DNA of 32,597 bases from Paracoccaceae bacterium (GTDB lineage Bacteria; Pseudomonadota; Alphaproteobacteria; Rhodobacterales; Rhodobacteraceae), in NCBI GenBank assembly GCA_013214665.1, contig JABSSA010000023.1, forward strand, positions 1 to 32,597, written 5' to 3'. The number at the start of each line of letters is the position of its first letter. The stretch's first letter is position 1. The position numbers and the translations under genes are program-made. A model generated the notes under the pieces. That model had not been told where the DNA came from. It did not search any database and saw only the letters and a list, made by a program, of their open reading frames with translations. Positions 1 to 11,491 of the stretch are shown here, piece by piece.

Positions 1-1170
1 GCAATATCCATCGATGCGGGGCGCATCACGGCGTCGGGTGGCACGGTTGTCAATATGAAGGGCGCAATCGTTTTCCCAGCCTTTACCGACATGCACACGC
101 ATCTCGACAAGGGCCACATCTGGCCGCGTAGCCCGAACCCCGATGGCACCTTTCCGGGCGCCTTGAACGCGGTACGCGCGGATACCACAGCGCATTGGAG
201 CGCCGAAGATGTGGCCGCGCGGATGAATTTCGCTCTAAAGTCTGCTTATGCGCATGGCACCAAGGCCATCCGCACACACCTCGATTCAAGCCCTCCGCAA
301 AATGACATCTCTTGGCCTTTGTTCCGCGAGATCCGCGCTGAATGGGCCGACAAGATCGCGTTGCAAGCCGTATGTTTGGTGGGATGCGAAGGTGTGGAGG
401 CTGATGGTCCCTTTGCGCACACGGCCGATCTGGTGGCCGACACCGGCGGCGTGCTGGGCATGGTCAGCTACCCGGTGCCCCGGTTGAAAGAGCATCTGGT
501 GACCTTCCTGAAAATGGCGCAGGATCGCGGTCTCGCCGTCGATCTCCATGTCGATGAAACCATCGACCCGGGCGTTGAAACGCTGCGCATGATCGCAGAG
601 ACGGTGCAGGAAACCGGGTTTGCGGCCCGCGTGATCGCCGGACATTGCTGCTCTCTCTCCACGCAAGACGAAGCACGCGCCTTGGACACCCTTGATCTCG
701 TGGCCAAGGCGGGCATCCACATCGTGTCGCTGCCCATGTGCAACCTCTATCTGCAAGACCGCCACGCCGGACGCACGCCCCGCGGGCGTGGCATCACGCT
801 GGTTCACGAGATGAAGGCGCGGGGCATTCCCGTCTCATTTGCCTCCGACAACACGCGTGACCCGTTTTACGCCTATGGCGATCTCGACATGCTTGAAGTC
901 ATGCGCGATGCCACGCGCATCGGCCATCTGGATCATTCCGATGCCGACTGGTCCAAATCATTCCTCGCTACGCCAGCAGAAACCTGTGGCTTTGACGCGC
1001 CCAGCCTCGCCCCAGGTGCGCCCGCCGATCTGGTGATATTTAACGCCCGTTCCTGGACAGAACTTTTTGCGCGCCCACAATCTGACAGGGTGGTGCTGAG
1101 GAATGGCGCAGCTATCGACCGCACATTGCCCAATTATTCCGAACTTGATCATCTGATGGACAAATCATGA
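1..1170 (+). CDS. Amidohydrolase family protein, cytosine deaminase-like (5' end outside window)
   Basis: Frame is open from base 1 (AISIDAGRITASGGTVVNMKGAIVFPAFTDMHTHLDKGH), so the ATG at 55 is probably internal. HxH motif DMHTHLDKGH, DLHVDE, AGHCCS and SFASDNTRDPF fit cytosine-deaminase-like amidohydrolases. Confidence 0.88.
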   Translation, partial: AISIDAGRITASGGTVVNMKGAIVFPAFTDMHTHLDKGHIWPRSPNPDGTFPGALNAVRADTTAHWSAEDVAARMNFALKSAYAHGTKAIRTHLDSSPPQNDISWPLFREIRAEWADKIALQAVCLVGCEGVEADGPFAHTADLVADTGGVLGMVSYPVPRLKEHLVTFLKMAQDRGLAVDLHVDETIDPGVETLRMIAETVQETGFAARVIAGHCCSLSTQDEARALDTLDLVAKAGIHIVSLPMCNLYLQDRHAGRTPRGRGITLVHEMKARGIPVSFASDNTRDPFYAYGDLDMLEVMRDATRIGHLDHSDADWSKSFLATPAETCGFDAPSLAPGAPADLVIFNARSWTELFARPQSDRVVLRNGAAIDRTLPNYSELDHLMDKS

Positions 1171-2570
1171 AAGAGAACGTCGCCGCCGCCAAGGCCGCCC
1201 TCGCCCATATCGAGACCTCAGAACGCCGGTCCGACATCAAAGCTTCATCGCGCGATTACTTTTGGTACTCGCCGGTTCTGAAAGATCGGCTCAACCATGT
1301 TGTCGCGGACTTCGTCGTACGCCCGAAAAACGAGGCCGAAGTTATCGAGGTGCTGAAGACCTGCTATGCCCACAACGTACCCGTCACAACCCGTGGCGCA
1401 GGTACGGGAAATTACGGGCAGGCCATGCCGTTGGAAGGCGGGTGCGTTATGCATCTGCGGGACATGAACAAGGTCAAGGAAATCCACCCCGGTCGCGTGA
1501 TCTGTGAACCGGGGGTGATCCTCAAAGATCTCGACGCGGCCTGCATCGAGGATTCGGGCCAGGAAATTCGGATGTTCTCCTCAACCTGGGCCACGGCGAC
1601 GGTCGGCGGCTTTATCGCTGGCGGCTCTGGCGGCGTGGGCTCAGTGACATGGGGCAGCCTGCGCGATCTGGGCAACATTCTGCGCCTGCGCGTCGTAACG
1701 ATGGAAGCGGAACCCCGCGTTCTGGACTTTACCGGCGATGATCTGGCCCGCGTCAGCCATGCTTACGGCACTAATGGCATAATCACCGAAATCGAATTGC
1801 CGCTTGCACCACGCTACGAATGGATCGACGTGATGGTGACAACCGAAGACTTCGACATGGCCATGCAGGTGTCTGACGATGTCGCCAATCTCGACGGTAT
1901 CCTGATCAAAGTGGCAAGTGTTTATGAGGCGCCGACCGCCCACGATTATTTCCAGCGGGTCAAACCCTATGTGACCGAGAAAGACCATCTGGTTGGCCTT
2001 ATGGTCGCGCCGCATTCCATGGATGCGTTTCTGACGTATCTTGGTCGCCACGACAGCGCGCAACTGATCTATCGTTCTGATGAAACCAAATGGGACGAAG
2101 ATCCCGGCCCGGTCTTTGAATACGGCTGGAACCACACCACCTTGCGCGCGTTGCAGTTTGATCCAAAGGTCACCTACCTGCAAATTCGCTACGCCTTCCC
2201 GGACCACAAGGAATTGGTCAACAAGATGCGGGCCGAGTTCTATCCGGAAGTGTTGCAACATCTCGAAAGCATCCGCTCCGAAGGCACGTTGAACTTTGCG
2301 GGGCTGAGCCTCATCAAATTCACCACCGAGGAGCGTTTGGATGAAATCGTGCGTATCCACGAAGAGGCAGGCGCGTTGGTTTACAATCCACACCGCTACA
2401 CTCTGGAAGAAGGCGGTCGCCAAACGGTTGATGACGTGCAGCTGCAATTCAAGAAAGAAGCCGATCCCAAAGGCCTTCTGAACCCCGGCAAAATGATCGC
2501 CTGGGACGATCCGGAATGGTCCTATGATCAGATGTATGCTTATCCCAAGCTGCAAGAGGCCAAAAGGTAA
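1167..2570 (+). CDS. FAD-binding oxidoreductase (GlcD/PCMH-type FAD-linked oxidase)
   Basis: 467 aa ORF with FAD-binding PCMH features (VVRPKNEAEVIEVLKTC, PVTTRGAGTGNYGQAMPLEGG, GGFIAGGSGGVGSVTWG). ATGA overlap with the upstream gene. Confidence 0.88.
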   Translation: MKENVAAAKAALAHIETSERRSDIKASSRDYFWYSPVLKDRLNHVVADFVVRPKNEAEVIEVLKTCYAHNVPVTTRGAGTGNYGQAMPLEGGCVMHLRDMNKVKEIHPGRVICEPGVILKDLDAACIEDSGQEIRMFSSTWATATVGGFIAGGSGGVGSVTWGSLRDLGNILRLRVVTMEAEPRVLDFTGDDLARVSHAYGTNGIITEIELPLAPRYEWIDVMVTTEDFDMAMQVSDDVANLDGILIKVASVYEAPTAHDYFQRVKPYVTEKDHLVGLMVAPHSMDAFLTYLGRHDSAQLIYRSDETKWDEDPGPVFEYGWNHTTLRALQFDPKVTYLQIRYAFPDHKELVNKMRAEFYPEVLQHLESIRSEGTLNFAGLSLIKFTTEERLDEIVRIHEEAGALVYNPHRYTLEEGGRQTVDDVQLQFKKEADPKGLLNPGKMIAWDDPEWSYDQMYAYPKLQEAKR

Positions 2571-3152
2571 GTGGCGCGCGCACTCGTTCTTTTTGCCCAT
2601 CCTTGCCCAGAGAGCTTTTCAGCCGCGCTGCATACGGCGACGGTTGAAAGCCTGAAAGGCAAAGGCTGGGATGTGGACGATTGCGATCTGAACGCCGAAG
2701 GGTTTGATCCTGTGCTCAGCCAAGCGGAACGGCGCGCTTATCATGACGAAGGCACCAACACCGCACCGATTGCGGACTACGTGGAGCGCCTGCGTGCGGC
2801 GGATGCTCTGGTGATGGTCTTCCCAGTCTGGAATTTCGGCTATCCTGCGATCCTCAAAGGGTTTCTGGATCGCGTTTTTCTGCCAGGCGTGTCGTTCAAA
2901 CTGGTGGAGGGTAAGGTGAAACCAAACCTGACCCACATCCGCAAACTGGCCGCTGTCACCACATACGGTGGCACGCGCACCCGCGCCTTTCTGGCCGGCG
3001 ATCCGCCCCGCAAAAGCGTGCGGCGCGCGGTTTGGCATGTCTGTCGGCCAGACAAGATGCGGTACCTCGCACTTTACGACATGAACCGGGCCACCGATGG
3101 CCAACGGGCCCAGTTTTTAAAGAAAGTTCAAAAGGAGATGGAGGATTTCTGA
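2571..3152 (+). CDS. NAD(P)H dehydrogenase (quinone)/flavodoxin-fold oxidoreductase
   Basis: GTG start directly after the previous TAA. LVLFAHPCPESFSAALH and VFPVWNFGYPAILKGFLDRVFLPGVSF are typical of the flavodoxin_2 family. Confidence 0.85.
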   Translation: MARALVLFAHPCPESFSAALHTATVESLKGKGWDVDDCDLNAEGFDPVLSQAERRAYHDEGTNTAPIADYVERLRAADALVMVFPVWNFGYPAILKGFLDRVFLPGVSFKLVEGKVKPNLTHIRKLAAVTTYGGTRTRAFLAGDPPRKSVRRAVWHVCRPDKMRYLALYDMNRATDGQRAQFLKKVQKEMEDF

Positions 3153-3155
3153 GCT

Positions 3156-3782
3156 ATGCGCGCGCTCATTGTTTATTGTCACCCACGCCCCGACAGCTTT
3201 AACGCCGCGGTCCGCGATGTTGTCTTGGACCGCCTGAAGGAAGGCGGGGCTGAGGCTCGGCTGATCGACGTTTACGCCCGTGGGTTTGATCCTGTCCTAT
3301 CCACGCAGGAATGGACGGATTACGAAAACGAAAGCATCAATCAGACCGGCCGCGAAGATGACATCGCCCATCTGCAATGGTGCGACACGCTGATCTTTGT
3401 CTATCCCACATGGTGGTACGGCCTGCCCGCAGCGCTCAAAGGATGGCTGGACCGTGTTTTGGTGCCCGGCGTAGCATTCAAAATGCCGAATGATGAAAGC
3501 CCCAACATCCGCCCCGGCCTGTCGCATATCACGCGGCTTGGCGTGTTCACGACCTGCGGCGCTTCCTGGTGGCTGACCCAGATGGTGGGCGCTCCGGGGC
3601 GCAAAACTTTGATGCGCGGTCTGCGGTTCGTCTGCGCCCGGTCCTGCCGCCGCACCTTTGCGGCGCATTACCTGATGGACAGTTCTACAGCCGAAAGCCG
3701 CGCGGCCCATCTTGACCGCGTCGCAGCTAAGATGGACCGTTTCATTGGCCCCAACCCAAAAAGACAAAGTGCCCCCGCATGA
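3156..3782 (+). CDS. NAD(P)H dehydrogenase (quinone)/flavodoxin-fold oxidoreductase, second copy
   Basis: LIVYCHPRPDSFNAAV and YPTWWYGLPAALKGWLDRVLVPGVAFKMP; similar in layout to the preceding gene. Confidence 0.86.
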   Translation: MRALIVYCHPRPDSFNAAVRDVVLDRLKEGGAEARLIDVYARGFDPVLSTQEWTDYENESINQTGREDDIAHLQWCDTLIFVYPTWWYGLPAALKGWLDRVLVPGVAFKMPNDESPNIRPGLSHITRLGVFTTCGASWWLTQMVGAPGRKTLMRGLRFVCARSCRRTFAAHYLMDSSTAESRAAHLDRVAAKMDRFIGPNPKRQSAPA

Positions 3783-4699
3783 TACCCGTTCTTGATTGGC
3801 AAGAGTTCGAAAGCCACCCCGATGCGTTCGTCACCAAACTTGGGCAGGCCTGTCGGGAAACCGGGTTCTTTCTGTTGCAAAATCACGGAATTCCCAAAAC
3901 GCTTCGCGACGATGTCTTTGCCAAAGCGGATGCATTCTTTGCCCTGCCACGCGCCGAAAAGGCCAAGGTCTCGATCCTGAACTCACCGCATTTTCGCGGC
4001 TGGGCGAAACCCGGCGATGAAAGCCTGGACGAAAACAGCCCCGAGATCGATACCAAGGAAACGTTCAACATCGGCTATGACCTGCCCGAGGATGATCCGC
4101 GCGTGATCGCGGGGGAGCCATTTCGCGGCATCAACCAATGGCCCGCCCTGCCAGGCTTTGCCGAAACGATGCGCGCCTATTATGACGCGACCTTAAATCT
4201 GGGCGTGGCGCTGCACCGGGCCTTTGCCTGTGATCTGGGGTTGCCTGCGGATTTCTTTGACCACGCGTTTGATGAGCCGTTGGCGGCACTGCGACTGTTG
4301 ACATACCCACCTGCAACAGGGGCCGCCAATGAAATTGGCGCTGGCGCTCATACGGATTACGGCGCAATTACACTATTGATGACGGATGGCGAGCCGGGCC
4401 TGCAGGTTAAACCACGCGACGGCGATTGGATGGATCTGCCCCATGTGCCCGAAGCCTATGCCGTGAACATCGGTGACTGTTTGATGCGGTGGACAAACGA
4501 TATCTATGTCTCCACGCCGCACCGCGTTTTGCCGCCTCAAAACCGGCGGCGCTCTGTTGCGATGTTCGTCGAGGCGAACCCGGATACGATCTTTAAGGCA
4601 TTGCCAGGCACCGGCGCGGCCAAATATCCGCCAATCCGCGCGGCCGATTACCTGATGTCGCGGCTTGATGCGACCTATGCCCCAAAGGAGGTAACATGA
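3779..4699 (+). CDS. Fe(II)/2-oxoglutarate-dependent oxygenase, isopenicillin N synthase-like family
   Basis: N-terminal DIOX_N-like IPVLDWQEFE...ETGFFLLQNHGIP; catalytic GAHTDYGAITLLMTDGEPGLQV and later STPHRV. ATGA overlap with upstream ORF. Confidence 0.92.
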   Translation: MIPVLDWQEFESHPDAFVTKLGQACRETGFFLLQNHGIPKTLRDDVFAKADAFFALPRAEKAKVSILNSPHFRGWAKPGDESLDENSPEIDTKETFNIGYDLPEDDPRVIAGEPFRGINQWPALPGFAETMRAYYDATLNLGVALHRAFACDLGLPADFFDHAFDEPLAALRLLTYPPATGAANEIGAGAHTDYGAITLLMTDGEPGLQVKPRDGDWMDLPHVPEAYAVNIGDCLMRWTNDIYVSTPHRVLPPQNRRRSVAMFVEANPDTIFKALPGTGAAKYPPIRAADYLMSRLDATYAPKEVT

Positions 4700-5469
4700 C
4701 ACGCCGCATGGATTGGGCCGACTACCGATTTGCCGAATTTGGTGAGATTGATCCGATGAACACCATCGCGATCCTGCCCACAGCCGCCATCGAACAGCAT
4801 GGGCCGCACTTGCCAGTCGGCACGGACACAATGATTGCGCAAGGGATGCTGGATCGCTTTCGCACGCTGTGCCCCAATGATCTCGACGCGCGCATTCTGC
4901 CCATTCAGGCGGTTGGCAAATCGAACGAACATCTCTGGGCGGCGGGCACGCTTACCTTAACGGCGGCCACCGCGTTACAAGTCTGGACAGAGATTGGAGT
5001 GTCGGTCGCCCGCGCAGGCGTGCGCAAGATCGTGATCGTGAATTCCCACGGCGGCAATCTGGATCTCGTATCGATCCTGTCACGCGAGTTGCGCGTTCAG
5101 GCCCAGATGCTGGCCGTGAAATGCCATTGGGGCGCGTTTGGCTATCCCGATGGGCTCTATTCCGACCACGAGATGTCTTACGGCATTCACGGCGGCGATG
5201 TGGAGACCTCGCTGATGCTGCAATTCCGCCCCGAGACCGTGGATATGACAGCCGCGGACAAGTTCCACTCCAGCGCGGAAACCTCCGCCATCTCTCCCAT
5301 CGGGCCCGTCAGCTATGGCTGGATTGCATCCGATCTCAGCGACGCCGGTGTGGTTGGAGATGCCGCGCGGGCCAGCGCACTTAAAGGCGCGGCCACAGCC
5401 GATCACCAGGTGACCGGGTTTATCGATCTTTTGCGCAAGGTCGAAACGACACCCCTTTTTGCGGATTGA
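4696..5469 (+). CDS. Creatininase family protein
   Basis: AILPTAAIEQHGPHLPVGTDT, VNSHGGNLDLV and IHGGDVETSLML are creatininase-family metal-site motifs. ATGA overlap with upstream ORF. Confidence 0.92.
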   Translation: MTRRMDWADYRFAEFGEIDPMNTIAILPTAAIEQHGPHLPVGTDTMIAQGMLDRFRTLCPNDLDARILPIQAVGKSNEHLWAAGTLTLTAATALQVWTEIGVSVARAGVRKIVIVNSHGGNLDLVSILSRELRVQAQMLAVKCHWGAFGYPDGLYSDHEMSYGIHGGDVETSLMLQFRPETVDMTAADKFHSSAETSAISPIGPVSYGWIASDLSDAGVVGDAARASALKGAATADHQVTGFIDLLRKVETTPLFAD

Positions 5470-5472
5470 TCC

Positions 5473-5529
5473 AACGGGCAAGGCGCTTCGAAGCGCCTTG
5501 GCATCGGCTTCGAAGCCGATGGGCCCGTT
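5473..5529. terminator. Nested inverted repeats between convergent operons; candidate bidirectional terminator/three-way junction
   Basis: Two adjacent perfect palindromes, CAAGGCGCTTCGAAGCGCCTTG (5479-5500) and CATCGGCTTCGAAGCCGATG (5502-5521), enclosed by AACGGGC (5473-5479) and GCCCGTT (5523-5529). No T tract, so the terminator role is inferred. Confidence 0.6.
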
Positions 5530-5542
5530 TACTGTGTCATCG

Positions 5543-7498
5543 TCAAAACACCCAACCGGGCCAGACATCTGCCAGCCAGGGCGTGCGCACCCGTATGGGC
5601 GAAAAGTACAACGCATAAGCCGCAATTCCACCAAACCAAAGCGCAGGTGTCAGCCCAAAGCGCCGCCACGCAGGACGCGCGTCCTGCGCCCCCTGAAGCG
5701 CTATCCATCCGGCTGCAAATAACGCCATGCTGGTCGCGACGCCAATCACCGGTACAAGCGCCACCGTCACGCCCATCAGGGCAAATTGCCGGATCGGCAT
5801 CTGTTTGTCTTGCCGCTCAGGCGCTGCCGCTTTCAGCCCCACATAACTGCGGACCAGCATCAGACCGCTGATCATCGCGCCACCCCCCGCAGTTAGCAGG
5901 GACAAAATATCCAACCGCACATTCAACTCAGAACTTTGGGCAAGCAGAGCACAGAAATAGGCCAGAAAGCCCGCGCCAATGATCCGCTCAGAGGGTTGAA
6001 ACCGCCAATCGTCTGCAAAATCCCGGCTCCGACGCACCAGCCTATACAGCACGATGGCCAGCAACAGCATCAACACCAGCGATGCAGGTCGCTCAAACGG
6101 ATTCAATCGCCCGACAGAGATCAACTGAGCCGACAGCGCGTAATTGCCTTCGATGAACTCTCCCAGCAAAAAGGCCAGCAAAAACGGTGTCTTGGGCCAG
6201 TCATGAAAGCGGAACATATATCCCAAAATGCCAAATACGACGGCAAAGACCAGATCCATCGGCTCCCCGCGTAAATGCACGACCGAGACAAAGGTGATGA
6301 TCAAAAGCGGCAAAGCAAAACGCTCGATATCCAGCCGCCGGAACTTGGCCAGCTGCGGGGTCAGAGCCACGCCCACAACCGAGGTCAGGATGTTGGAAAA
6401 CAACAAGGCCAGGATCAACGTCAACGACATCGGCAGGTCTGTGGTCAACATTTCCGGGCCAAGCGCAAATCCGTGAATGGTAAGCACAGCCAACAAAATC
6501 ACCCCGCCTTCGCTGCCGGGCAATCCAAGCGTTAAAAGCGGCAAAAGTGATCCACCGTCCTTGGAATCCGCAGCAGCTTCGGGCGCGATCAAGCCTTTGA
6601 TATTGCCTTTCCCGAAGGCGACTTTTTCTTTCTTGTTGGTGTTCAACGCATGGGAATAGGCCAAAAAGCTGGCAACAGTGCCACCTGCACCCGGCAAAAT
6701 TCCGATCACCGTTCCGATGACAGAGGACCGCATCGTCAACGACAGGTTTTTAAAAACCGCCCGCATCCCCGCCAGGATCGACCCGCTGTCGGCCTGATAT
6801 TGCGTGCCTTCCGTCCGGATGCGTTTTGTCCAGGCGAAAACTTCGGACAGGGTCAGCAATCCAATGATCACTGGCAAATACCCGATCCCACCCAACAAAG
6901 ACAGCAAGCCAAAATCCCACCTCGGTTCGCCTGTCGCGGCAGAGGTGCCAATCATGGGAATGGAAAACCCCAGCAAAATCGTAACCACAGAGCGCGACGG
7001 CGCGGAGCGCACGATCGAGGCCACGGTCAAAATGCCCAAGACCCCAATCAAAACGCGCTCAAACGGGCCGATTTCGACAATGATCTCATAAACAATCGGC
7101 AACAGGATCAAAAGCGTCAGAACCCCGAACACCGAACCAACGGCGGAGGCTGTCGCGGCGGCTGCAATGGCTGTGCGCGCCTGTCCTTTTTGCGCCAGCG
7201 GATAGCCATCCAAAAGCGCCGCTGCCGCCGGTGCGTTGCCAGGGATGTTAAACAGGATCGCCGTGATCGATCCCATAAACGTGGCGCCACCCGTGATGGC
7301 TCCAAAGATCAAAATGACCGGCTCGACATCCCAATCCAGCGAAATCAACAACACAAGCGCTGCAAGGCTCGTGCCGCCGACCCCCGGCAAGAACGCCGAG
7401 AACATGGCGATCAATGTGCCTATGATTGGGTAAAGGATGTTGGGCCAGCTGAACAAAATGCCCGATGCTGTCCCAAACGCATCAAGGAAGTTCGACAT
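5543..7498 (-). CDS. Tripartite tricarboxylate transporter permease, TctA with C-terminal TctB-like region
   Basis: TctA motifs (PGVGGTSLAALVLLISL, GAITGGATFMGSITAILFNIPGNAPAAAALLDGYPLA, GILPGAGGTVASFLAY, LTLGLPGSEGGVILLAVL). The last ~150 aa form a separate hydrophobic TctB-like region. Start taken at MSNFLDAFG (7498), not the longer ORF start. Confidence 0.9.
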   Translation of the reverse strand: MSNFLDAFGTASGILFSWPNILYPIIGTLIAMFSAFLPGVGGTSLAALVLLISLDWDVEPVILIFGAITGGATFMGSITAILFNIPGNAPAAAALLDGYPLAQKGQARTAIAAAATASAVGSVFGVLTLLILLPIVYEIIVEIGPFERVLIGVLGILTVASIVRSAPSRSVVTILLGFSIPMIGTSAATGEPRWDFGLLSLLGGIGYLPVIIGLLTLSEVFAWTKRIRTEGTQYQADSGSILAGMRAVFKNLSLTMRSSVIGTVIGILPGAGGTVASFLAYSHALNTNKKEKVAFGKGNIKGLIAPEAAADSKDGGSLLPLLTLGLPGSEGGVILLAVLTIHGFALGPEMLTTDLPMSLTLILALLFSNILTSVVGVALTPQLAKFRRLDIERFALPLLIITFVSVVHLRGEPMDLVFAVVFGILGYMFRFHDWPKTPFLLAFLLGEFIEGNYALSAQLISVGRLNPFERPASLVLMLLLAIVLYRLVRRSRDFADDWRFQPSERIIGAGFLAYFCALLAQSSELNVRLDILSLLTAGGGAMISGLMLVRSYVGLKAAAPERQDKQMPIRQFALMGVTVALVPVIGVATSMALFAAGWIALQGAQDARPAWRRFGLTPALWFGGIAAYALYFSPIRVRTPWLADVWPGWVF

Positions 7499-9290
7499 AA
7501 TCTTCCTTGAAGGCGGGCGCGAAATGGAATGCCGCGTCTTCCAGTATGTGGCGGGCATGGCTGCGCAATGTGTCGCGTTGCTCCGTGTCGGCATCCGACG
7601 GGAAGGCAAATTTGATCTTGTCCCACGCCATCATTGGAGAGCCGTAAAGCCGCAGCTCTTGAATTGACATCGCACAGAATAAACGCTCCGCATCGCTGCG
7701 TTGCATCGCGGCGCGCGCGGCAGAAAACGCATTGGGAAACGGGCCTGCGCGGCGCGAATCATCCACCCAAACGCCCTTAAGTGCAGAAGTAACAGCCCCC
7801 TCAGACAACCCAGCCATCTGATCCGAGATCGCGTCCGCATCGAGCGCATCCGCATCAAACACCAGCAATTCGGCTGGCACCGAAAATCCGTTGGGTCGCA
7901 GCTGGTTCATCAACAAGACATAGTTTTCCAGCCGGTCCATCGTCGCGAATTGAGGCTGTCCGTTCACTTCGCACAATGCGCCGTCCTGATCGCGCCAGGA
8001 TACGCGCATGTCATTCACAATCACGTCCACGCCAGCCAGATCCAATCGCAGAACCTGCGCCGCCTCTTCGGCCAGTGCAATGTTGTCTGGATGCACATCT
8101 GCCAATTCAATCGTTTCGTTTGTGCCGCCCGCATTGATATTGTCCCGCGCCCTCAGCCGCACGAATTGACCCGCTTCAATGACGCTGTCCACGGTCAAAC
8201 CTTGCCGCGCCAGCAATTGTTCGGCTTCGTCGTCCAGTTCAAGTTTGAATCGTCCGGCGCGCACTCGACGTTGGTTTCGTGGGTCTTGCAGGGCCAGGTC
8301 GCGCAATTCGCGCACAGTGTGTGTGCCATCCCCCAACACCCCACCGGGCCAACGTTTGCGAACATTGATCACACGGCCAGCAACGACCGTCAGGCGATGG
8401 GTATACCCTGGGATATAGCCTTCAATCAGAATGTTGGAGGAGTGTTCTTGCGCCGCGGAATACGCCGCTTTCAACGCGTCAATATCCTGAATATCGGCGG
8501 TAACCCCACGACCCTGATCGGTATCTGCCGGTTTGATCACGACGGGAAACCCGTGCTTTTCGGCAAACGCCTGTGCGTGCCCCACTGTGGCGACCAATTG
8601 CCCTTTTGGAACCGGCAATCCCGCCATCGTCAGGTTCATCCGGCAAGCATTTTTGTTTTTGGCGACCCGTAACCCGATTGGGTTTGTGTTTTCGGTCATC
8701 GTGCTGTCGATCCATAGCGACGCAGCGCCCTTGCCCAAACACACTGAGCCCGTACCAAGGATCGGCACCCACTCCACGCGCAGTCGCTGGGCGACTGTTG
8801 CAAAGGCCATAGCATTGACGTGGTTGGATTGATTGGCCTTTACGTTGTTGCGCAGTGCCGAAAGCTTTTCGGCGAGCATCTCCGCCCCAGCCTCTTTGAA
8901 TCCGTTCCACATATCGACCATCGTAGAAAAAGCGTTGATCGTGCTTTGCGAAACAAAATACGGCACAAAAACGAGCCATTGCGCTTGTTGTGCTGTTTCG
9001 GTGACTTCCACGGAATGAACGGCCTCACCAACAGGCAGCCGATCAGCCCGCTGTATCTGAACCGCGAGCGCTGCAAGCTTGGTGACCACCTGCTGTACGG
9101 GCGACGCAAAATCCGTATCCGGTACAACGCATTGATCATCGATCTCGTGCAATGCGGACGCAAACGCCGTCAACCTTTCGACGTCGGACGCATCAGCGCC
9201 CTTGATAAGAAGCGAAAACCGGACACATGGCTGTGCCAGCCCATAGACATATCCAAGTTGCGGATGTGTGTTGGTGATTTTGATCTGCAC
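7482..9290 (-). CDS. ATP-grasp ligase, related to cyanophycin synthetase ATP-grasp region
   Basis: GFPVVIKPADTDQGRGVTADI, ILIEGYIPGYTHRLTVVAGRVINVRKRWPGGVLGDGTHTV and LCEVNGQPQFATM resemble CphA-type ATP-grasp. No Mur-ligase domain follows. GTG start at 9290; 3' end overlaps the TctA start. Confidence 0.85.
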   Translation of the reverse strand: MQIKITNTHPQLGYVYGLAQPCVRFSLLIKGADASDVERLTAFASALHEIDDQCVVPDTDFASPVQQVVTKLAALAVQIQRADRLPVGEAVHSVEVTETAQQAQWLVFVPYFVSQSTINAFSTMVDMWNGFKEAGAEMLAEKLSALRNNVKANQSNHVNAMAFATVAQRLRVEWVPILGTGSVCLGKGAASLWIDSTMTENTNPIGLRVAKNKNACRMNLTMAGLPVPKGQLVATVGHAQAFAEKHGFPVVIKPADTDQGRGVTADIQDIDALKAAYSAAQEHSSNILIEGYIPGYTHRLTVVAGRVINVRKRWPGGVLGDGTHTVRELRDLALQDPRNQRRVRAGRFKLELDDEAEQLLARQGLTVDSVIEAGQFVRLRARDNINAGGTNETIELADVHPDNIALAEEAAQVLRLDLAGVDVIVNDMRVSWRDQDGALCEVNGQPQFATMDRLENYVLLMNQLRPNGFSVPAELLVFDADALDADAISDQMAGLSEGAVTSALKGVWVDDSRRAGPFPNAFSAARAAMQRSDAERLFCAMSIQELRLYGSPMMAWDKIKFAFPSDADTEQRDTLRSHARHILEDAAFHFAPAFKEDYVELP

Positions 9291-9349
9291 AGGTCTCGCC
9301 TCAGAGCTTTGATGTTGAATATGAAATGAAAAACCGTTCTGCGGTCGAG

Positions 9350-10174
9350 TTACAACCGCCGAAGCGCGAATTGCGCGCGTTTGCGTGGTTGAGCGCCAAG
9401 TTCGCGTCGTGGCGATTTTGTAATCCCGTCGAGGTCATTGTTGATGTCGAGAACTTCGAAACCCGCTTTGGCAACCTCTTCCCGGAACGTCTCTTCCGTC
9501 AAAGGAAACCGCACAACTTCGTCTCTCCAATATGCAAGCGTTGCTTGTCTCACCTCTTCCGCGTCAAATCCCTGATACCGCTTGGAGGTTTCGGCAAGCA
9601 CATCTGCCGTATGTTCAACGCCGGACGGGGAACGATGAAAAGTGTTTGTGCCAAACACCTGAACCCCAAGCCAAACGCCACCGGGTTTCAACGTTTTGGC
9701 CACCACATCCATACATACCTTCTGTGTCGGGACCGGCAGAAACCGCAGGAAATTGTGGCTCACCGCAACGTCTACCGGTGCACAATCAAGCGCACCGATA
9801 TCGCCTTGATGGCATTCCAGCTCAAACCCGGCGCGCCTGGCAAAGATCTCATTCTGCCGCAGCGTGGTGGCACAGCGATCGGTCAACACGAAAGACGGCT
9901 CTATACCATGCGGAGCCGCTGCCGCGCGTGTCATTGCAATCACACCCGTATCAGCAGCGCCTGTCGATAAAATGCGTGGCGTTTTCGTTGTCTGGGCCAC
10001 TTTCGCGAGTTGATCGTTGAAAAAGGCTTCGCCATCTGGCAAGGCGCCATCCAGCTTTAGCAGCCGCACCAGCGAAAACATCCTGTGATACGGCGCACAG
10101 CCATGCGCCGGGTCGCACAGATTTGGCGCGTTCTCAAATGCGAAGCGCGCCAAATCTTCCAAAGGTTCGTTCAT
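9350..10174 (-). CDS. Class I SAM-dependent methyltransferase
   Basis: RILSTGAADTGVIAM (motif I-like), SHNFLRFLPVP, AKTLKPGGVWLGVQ. ORF can extend to 10216 with a TTG start; ATG at 10174 preferred. Confidence 0.75.
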   Translation of the reverse strand: MNEPLEDLARFAFENAPNLCDPAHGCAPYHRMFSLVRLLKLDGALPDGEAFFNDQLAKVAQTTKTPRILSTGAADTGVIAMTRAAAAPHGIEPSFVLTDRCATTLRQNEIFARRAGFELECHQGDIGALDCAPVDVAVSHNFLRFLPVPTQKVCMDVVAKTLKPGGVWLGVQVFGTNTFHRSPSGVEHTADVLAETSKRYQGFDAEEVRQATLAYWRDEVVRFPLTEETFREEVAKAGFEVLDINNDLDGITKSPRRELGAQPRKRAQFALRRL

Positions 10175-10196
10175 TCCAACAAGCTCGGTCTGAGGA

Positions 10197-11255
10197 TCAG
10201 CGTTCTTGTTCGGCAATCAGCGTGCGCAAAATTGGCGCCAGCGCAAGTTGACCCTCCAAAATGCTCTGCATCCGCGCCTTTGCGTCCTCGTGGCCTTCCG
10301 CTGATACAACACGCTTTTGCGCCTGTGCAGCTTCCGCATAGGCCGGATCCAGCAGCGCATCATTTGACGCCTCCACAAGGCACGCAACATCCGCCTCGTC
10401 CAACTTGGACGACACGAAGAACGCGCGCACGTCTTTTGACGTATCCGCAATCGCCTGCGCCAGCTTCATCCGCTCTTCGCGGTCCGCCGGATCGGCATCT
10501 TTGGTTGCCTGATCCACAAGACCACCTTCGCCGGCGATATGAGGAATGTCAGGATAATCCGCCAAAGGAGCATCCGTTTGAGACAACAGGATTTCCACGC
10601 CACCGCTTTTGAGGTGTTTGAGTGCAGTGGGCAAGCTTGATCCCCGCAAATCGATCTCGCCCCTGAGCAAGGCTGCCAGACCCTCGGAACTACCGCGATA
10701 GCCAGTGATCAGGTTCATCTCCAAACCCAAAGCCGACATCGCCATACCGACATCCGTGACACCATTGCTGACCGACATTGCCCCCGCCACAACAGGGCTG
10801 TCTTTGCCGTCCAGAAGATCATACCCCTCAACCCCGATGATCACGTTGGGCTGATTGGCGACGATGCCAAGCGGTATATAATTGTCCAAAATAATCTTGT
10901 CGGGGTTTTGCAAAGACGCGCCAACCAGATCAGCGATGTTCTCGATCAGCATCACCACTTCGGAAGACCGAGACGTGTTGCGCTGTAGTTCAAGCGAAGC
11001 GGCCAACCCACCTGCCCCGGGCATGTTGCTCACCGATACTGGCGCGCCAGAACTGGCTTCGAGGAATGGCGCATAGACGCGCGCGTAGGTGTCAAACCCA
11101 CCACCGGCCTTTTTCGGGACGATGAAGCTAATCCGCTTGCCCGAAAAATACGCAGCACATTGTTCGGAAAGCCCGTCCGCGTGCGCGGCCGCTCCAGAAA
11201 ATGGCATCCCGGCCAGCACCAAGGCAGCTACTTTAAGTTTAGAAATGAGTTTCAC
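10197..11255 (-). CDS. Tripartite tricarboxylate transporter substrate-binding protein (TctC/Bug-like)
   Basis: Signal peptide MKLISKLKVAALVLAGMPFSGAAAHADG, then KRISFIVPKKAGGGFDTYARVYAPFLEA...VSVSNMPGAGGLAASLEL typical of TctC. GTG start preceded by a GGGGGA stretch. Confidence 0.8.
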   Translation of the reverse strand: MKLISKLKVAALVLAGMPFSGAAAHADGLSEQCAAYFSGKRISFIVPKKAGGGFDTYARVYAPFLEASSGAPVSVSNMPGAGGLAASLELQRNTSRSSEVVMLIENIADLVGASLQNPDKIILDNYIPLGIVANQPNVIIGVEGYDLLDGKDSPVVAGAMSVSNGVTDVGMAMSALGLEMNLITGYRGSSEGLAALLRGEIDLRGSSLPTALKHLKSGGVEILLSQTDAPLADYPDIPHIAGEGGLVDQATKDADPADREERMKLAQAIADTSKDVRAFFVSSKLDEADVACLVEASNDALLDPAYAEAAQAQKRVVSAEGHEDAKARMQSILEGQLALAPILRTLIAEQER

Positions 11256-11404: not shown

Positions 11405-11491
11405 TGGTGCGGTCGAGAAGACTCGAACTTCCACGGGTGTTACCCCACAGCGACCTCAACGCTGCGCGTCTACCAATTCCGCCACGACCGC
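11405..11491 (-). tRNA. tRNA-Leu (anticodon GAG)
   Basis: Reverse complement GCGGTCGTGGCGGAATTGGTAGACGCGCAGCGTTGAGGTCGCTG...GTTCGAGTCTTCTCGACCGCACCA folds as a class II tRNA: acceptor GCGGTCG/CGACCGC, anticodon loop TTGAGGT, long variable arm, encoded CCA. Confidence 0.95.

Follow-up and report, generated by a model that had tools for sequence, protein, structure and literature searches.

Two facing gene modules in a marine Rhodobacteraceae genome: a probable pterin/folate-catabolic operon and a rare, separate TTT transporter unit

The ring portion of folate is a pterin, and the described components of bacterial pterin and folate catabolism include the proven pterin deaminases Arad3529 (Agrobacterium) and PDA (Variovorax sp. 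F1), as well as the flavin oxygenase of the structures 6v42 and 6v43, the former deposited under a title describing it as 'involved in folate catabolism'. The label 'endoribonuclease' is the older designation of RidA-family proteins. In Variovorax paradoxus, a conserved 'endoribonuclease' gene lies downstream of the predicted pterin deaminase genes (PMC9513972). Other systems relevant here are the cytosine deaminases (CodA) of E. coli and Klebsiella, the TctABC members of the tripartite tricarboxylate transporters (TTT), and the cyanophycin synthetases CphA1 and CphA2, the latter of which uses a single active site to repolymerise beta-Asp-Arg dipeptides (PMC10206079). In this work, we analysed a stretch of 32,597 nucleotides (hereafter the window) that comprises the entire contig JABSSA010000023.1 (C146) of a marine Rhodobacteraceae genome assembled into 469 contigs (Paracoccaceae bacterium, GCA_013214665.1; G000), focusing on two convergent gene sets in its first 11,255 positions: a plus-strand set encoding an amidohydrolase, a flavin adenine dinucleotide (FAD) protein and further enzymes, and a minus-strand set encoding TTT components, a methyltransferase and an ATP-grasp ligase.

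We consider it likely that the two gene sets are independent modules that happen to converge, namely a pterin/folate-catabolic operon and a rare, separate TTT unit. Around the gene of the FAD protein, 80 named Rhodobacteraceae loci were collected, of which 70 to 73 had enough flanking sequence to be counted. An ATP-binding cassette (ABC) importer of the NMT1 type, with substrate-binding protein, ATPase and permease, was found directly upstream in 73/73 loci and a CodA-like gene in 72/73; each of the two flavin reductases was present in 69/70, the creatininase-like gene in 59/70, the 2-oxoglutarate (2OG) oxygenase in 58/70, and a divergent RidA gene in 53/73. This conserved gene set bears out the proposal of the initial annotation that the plus-strand genes form one operon. 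Genes of the TTT half (TctA, TctC, methyltransferase, ATP-grasp) occurred in none of 70 loci carrying that operon. In the reverse direction, with a threshold of E below 1e-110 for TctA orthologues, fused or extended TctA was found in five of the 397 family genomes surveyed and was adjoined by the methyltransferase in all five; the methyltransferase family was found in seven genomes, and the probability of a chance co-occurrence of both, own genome excluded, was about 1.5e-8. The flavin oxygenase was absent from all four other genomes with orthologous TctA and methyltransferase; genome G394 carries the flavin oxygenase and, on another contig, a lone methyltransferase of 36% identity, with no orthologous TctA. 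Since the halves fail to co-occur in either direction (0/70 and 0/4), they do not form the single uptake and processing pathway that had been proposed when the locus was first annotated. Furthermore, the plus-strand operon has its own ABC importer and therefore needs no TTT system.

Judged from sequence likeness and gene context, the plus-strand operon is most likely dedicated to the import and degradation of pterins, because of the resemblance of its FAD protein to 6v42, the active-site changes of its amidohydrolase and its linkage to RidA. Among solved structures, the FAD protein is most similar to 6v42, which it matches over the whole length (phmmer 1.2e-168; 56% identity over about 450 columns, E 7.9e-50). 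The amidohydrolase shares the catalytic His/Glu/His/Asp set and the HxH motif with cytosine deaminase (1k6w, 4r7w), and 4r7w is its best match in the PDB, yet the similarity is distant (E 2.9e-33). In cytosine deaminase, the roles of the substrate-binding Gln (Q156 of the E. coli enzyme) and of the Asp that follows the catalytic Asp are known from the literature. The amidohydrolase differs at both positions: the Gln column holds Cys, Ile or Val and never Gln in 35/35 sequences, and the Asp is replaced by Asn in all 35. These changes relative to CodA, together with the RidA linkage, which resembles the predicted pairing of pterin deaminase and 'endoribonuclease' in Variovorax, are consistent with a pterin deaminase, and the protein falls in the same broad cyclic-amidine deaminase class as Arad3529 and PDA.

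The order of the operon reads RidA (divergent), NMT1-type ABC importer, deaminase, flavin oxygenase, two flavin reductases, 2OG oxygenase and creatininase-like hydrolase, and a breakdown route may be proposed on this basis, with each step and the order of steps inferred. The importer would bring in a pterin, which may be folate itself or one of its breakdown products (e.g., pterin-6-carboxylate); deamination by the amidohydrolase at the exocyclic amino group would yield a lumazine; this deaminated ring would be oxidised by the FAD oxygenase, for which the NAD(P)H reductases would provide electrons or reduced flavin; the creatininase-type metalloenzyme would open a cyclic amide; and RidA would clear reactive imines. 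Compared with the known pterin and folate systems, the Rhodobacteraceae operon adds a second reductase and usually the 2OG oxygenase. The initial annotation had suggested import and breakdown of an N-containing, carboxylated and possibly heterocyclic compound, which probably holds for the plus-strand operon, where pterins, as N-heterocycles that may be carboxylated, fit, and fails for a joint pathway; its statement that the gene combination matches no named pathway holds only in part, as the operon is partly known already through 6v42 and the pterin deaminases.

Several points weigh against this picture. The pterin substrate is drawn from the title of one deposited structure, from a single enzyme among those encoded and from the gene context; the amidohydrolase was likened to the known pterin deaminases at the level of enzyme class, and its NCBIfam name is cytosine deaminase; a search by gene names in the literature library found no paper describing the exact operon; and no carboxypeptidase G gene was present in the clusters read. 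For the minus strand, the single-sequence structure model of the ligase was unusable (predicted local distance difference test, pLDDT, 37).

Among the alternatives, an operon degrading a pyrimidine (cytosine, 5-methylcytosine, thymine or the thiamine pyrimidine) is unlikely but survives best. CodA would deaminate the ring, the 2OG oxygenase would act like thymine 7-hydroxylase, and the creatininase would open the ring; in its favour, the NCBIfam cytosine deaminase name is assigned above cut-off, the binding protein is of the NMT1/THI5 type, and the 2OG oxygenase, with a HxD...H motif invariant in eight sequences, has thymine dioxygenase among its closest PDB relatives, being nearer to it by sequence than to IPNS in the PDB ranking. 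However, the substrate-Gln position and the Asp are changed in all 35 sequences, the FAD protein is 56% identical to a folate-catabolism enzyme, and the 2OG oxygenase is missing from 12/70 loci and from the Rhizobium clusters read. In addition, a search for a RutR-like operator in front of the importer gave partial matches only and no conserved site, and a riboswitch search upstream of the operon returned only tRNAs above threshold. Breakdown of thiamine pyrimidine or thymine had been among our early guesses and was dropped on the 6v42 match. Far less probable is the degradation of creatinine, hydantoin or a related cyclic guanidine by a creatinine deaminase and a creatininase: both enzyme names do occur, and one Rhizobium etli operon is adjoined by urea amidolyase and isochorismatase/allophanate-type hydrolases, but the creatininase equivalog (EC 3.5.2.10) scored 81.7 bits against a cut-off of 235, and to our knowledge the creatinine pathway has no role for a flavin oxygenase or for RidA. 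The nearest NCBIfam model of the creatininase-family protein was MftE (101.6 bits, below cut-off). Least credible of all is an integrated pathway built from both operons, which adjacency in this genome and chemically compatible functions would favour, and which the lack of co-occurrence in both directions and the dedicated importer speak against.

Beyond the pyrimidine, creatinine and joint-pathway schemes, the probable pterin/folate module was followed outside the window. Its core (importer, amidohydrolase, FAD protein, reductase, creatininase, RidA) was also found on plasmids of Rhizobium and of Rhodobacterales, including Sulfitobacter and Pseudooceanicola, as well as on a Klebsiella plasmid and a Comamonadaceae plasmid, both of whose clusters include the RidA gene; thus, it is a widely spread catabolic module. 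A primer taken from the Variovorax pterin deaminase paper had no match in the Comamonadaceae plasmid. The complete core occurs on the clinical Klebsiella pneumoniae plasmid p2B17602 (L173, 1677-9362), with a FAD protein of 36% identity and a reductase of the PDR/VanB type. The pterin-type operon on plasmid pC of R. etli CIAT 652 (L132) has on its flanks genes for a urea amidolyase, an amidase and hydrolases of the isochorismatase/allophanate type, enzymes that may process its nitrogenous end products. On plasmid pRL11 of Rhizobium johnstonii 3841 (L190), genes for an ABC importer and a 2OG oxygenase lie close to a CodA-like gene of 46% identity; this locus has no FAD protein, and a YcaO/TfuA pair lies a few kb away.

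In the window, the amidohydrolase reading frame runs off the edge of the contig, and its 5' part is absent. The true N-terminus is located on contig C329 (L199) of the same assembly, together with the substrate-binding protein-ATPase-permease importer; therefore, the ATG at position 55 is not the start of the gene. The end of C329 and the first ~315 bases of the window encode the same ~105 residues with about six differences, a mismatch that suggests strain variation or a mixture that split the assembly.

On the minus strand, the TctC-methyltransferase-ATP-grasp-TctA operon constitutes a separate, rare TTT transporter unit. It has the TctA and TctC families in common with TctABC transporters, both above Pfam gathering scores, but here there is no separate TctB gene, TctA is extended, TctC is divergent, and the operon also carries the methyltransferase and the ATP-grasp enzyme. 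About 200 residues follow the Pfam match of TctA and were read as a membrane segment; no TctB profile matched them, and the extension looks TctB-like. TctC homologues adjoin TctA in four other genomes. A homologue of the methyltransferase passes Pfam Methyltransf_25/11, the family was aligned, and a profile search matched PDB methyltransferases at 4e-08. In three of the four other TctA-methyltransferase loci, the place of the ligase is taken by a different protein with a C-terminus similar to ATP-grasp ligases, of which the fourth genome encodes a more distant copy elsewhere; the best profile matches of this protein are D-Ala-D-Ala ligases at E values of only 0.03-0.06. Homology between this protein and the window ligase was considered and discarded, as the similarity is not significant. 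Two of the TTT-methyltransferase loci have neighbouring genes (L160, 10078-10944; L163, 1684-2679) that on visual inspection look like glycosyltransferases (GT25-like, GT2-like).

The probable cargo of the unit is a small carboxylated molecule that undergoes amide ligation and methylation, although its substrate and transport direction can be only weakly inferred. What points to a function is family membership and linkage, and the unit could be a new variant. It is possible, if doubtful, that the TctC-TctA-methyltransferase set, paired with the cyanophycin-synthetase-like ATP-grasp enzyme in this genome and with the different ATP-grasp-like protein in three of the four others, represents a new transporter-linked system for tailoring small molecules, in which a carboxylate is moved by the TTT transporter, amide-ligated and methylated, and in which this lineage has exchanged the ligase for an unrelated enzyme.

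The ligase itself (602 aa) shares the N domain and ATP-grasp region with CphA1 and CphA2: the NCBIfam model PRK14016 was matched over positions 95-449 of 871, and 7lgn aligned to residues 32-447. No Mur-ligase domain was matched past residue ~449 in Pfam, NCBIfam or the PDB, in which the protein differs from CphA1 with its active C-terminal Mur-ligase domain; the PDB relatives 7ta5 and 8fxh, of ~630 aa, are close to it in length. It further differs from CphA1 and CphA2 by its transporter-operon setting and by nine further matches in the same genome, and nothing here shows cyanophycin chemistry, with no genome-wide search aimed at cyanophycin-metabolism genes. Some of these nine matches are perhaps contig-end fragments, and four are close together on contig C44; a full-length enzyme of this kind was found in few of the 397 family genomes, and the paralogues are a lineage-specific expansion. 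A graspetide role was discarded for them: the candidate peptide on C44 (67 aa) lacks relatives in the vicinity of the other paralogues, and those short open reading frame matches that recurred fell largely within the ligase genes or opposite them.

Regarding the layout of the locus (Table 1), the ten genes, their assigned families, their tight packing and their convergent arrangement were all confirmed by the sequence and by Pfam and NCBIfam matches. The sequence contains the three ATGA overlaps (1167, 3779, 4696) as well as the TAA-GTG abutment (2570/2571), and TctA starts at 7498, overlapping the ligase gene by 17 nt. The two palindromes between the operons are probably a shared bidirectional terminator, because the 20-nt one recurs in the genome (four copies), with at least two of the other copies apparently between genes. 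A genomic island at the tRNA-Leu gene (11405-11491) was also considered and dropped, as the 3' end of this tRNA is not directly repeated anywhere in the window.

Table 1. Features of the two convergent operons in the window and locations of further ATP-grasp matches in the same genome
Feature	Position	Strand	Basis
CodA/pterin-deaminase-like amidohydrolase, 5' end missing	1..1170	+	PF07969; PRK07583 602 bits; PDB 4r7w 2.9e-33
FAD-dependent oxygenase/oxidoreductase, VAO-type fold	1167..2570	+	FAD_binding_4 PF01565; 6v42
NAD(P)H-dependent flavin/quinone reductase 1	2571..3152	+	Flavodoxin_2 PF02525
NAD(P)H-dependent flavin/quinone reductase 2	3156..3782	+	Flavodoxin_2 PF02525
2-oxoglutarate/Fe(II) oxygenase, IPNS-like fold	3779..4699	+	DIOX_N PF14226 and 2OG-FeII_Oxy PF03171
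Creatininase-family metallo-amidohydrolase	4696..5469	+	Creatininase PF02633, 218.8 bits
Pair of adjoining perfect palindromes separating the operons	5479..5521		5479-5500 and 5502-5521
TctA permease (TTT transporter), extra C-terminal membrane part	5543..7498	-	PF01970, 330 bits
Cyanophycin-synthetase-like ATP-grasp enzyme without C-terminal Mur-ligase half	7482..9290	-	RimK-like ATP-grasp; NCBIfam PRK14016
Class I S-adenosylmethionine methyltransferase-like protein	9350..10174	-	Weak Methyltransf_25
TctC-like periplasmic binding protein (TTT transporter), divergent	10197..11255	-	PF03401, 31.8 bits
Further ATP-grasp matches	C44 (L031/L032), C368 (L033), C343 (L034), C416 (L035), C257 (L036), C105 (L037)		

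Taken together, these results remove a false composite pathway and isolate the TTT transporter-methyltransferase-ATP-grasp unit as a small, testable question. They further indicate that genes for pterin/folate breakdown are common in marine Rhodobacteraceae, where they form a defined operon that includes an importer and whose key enzyme is labelled cytosine deaminase by current annotation.

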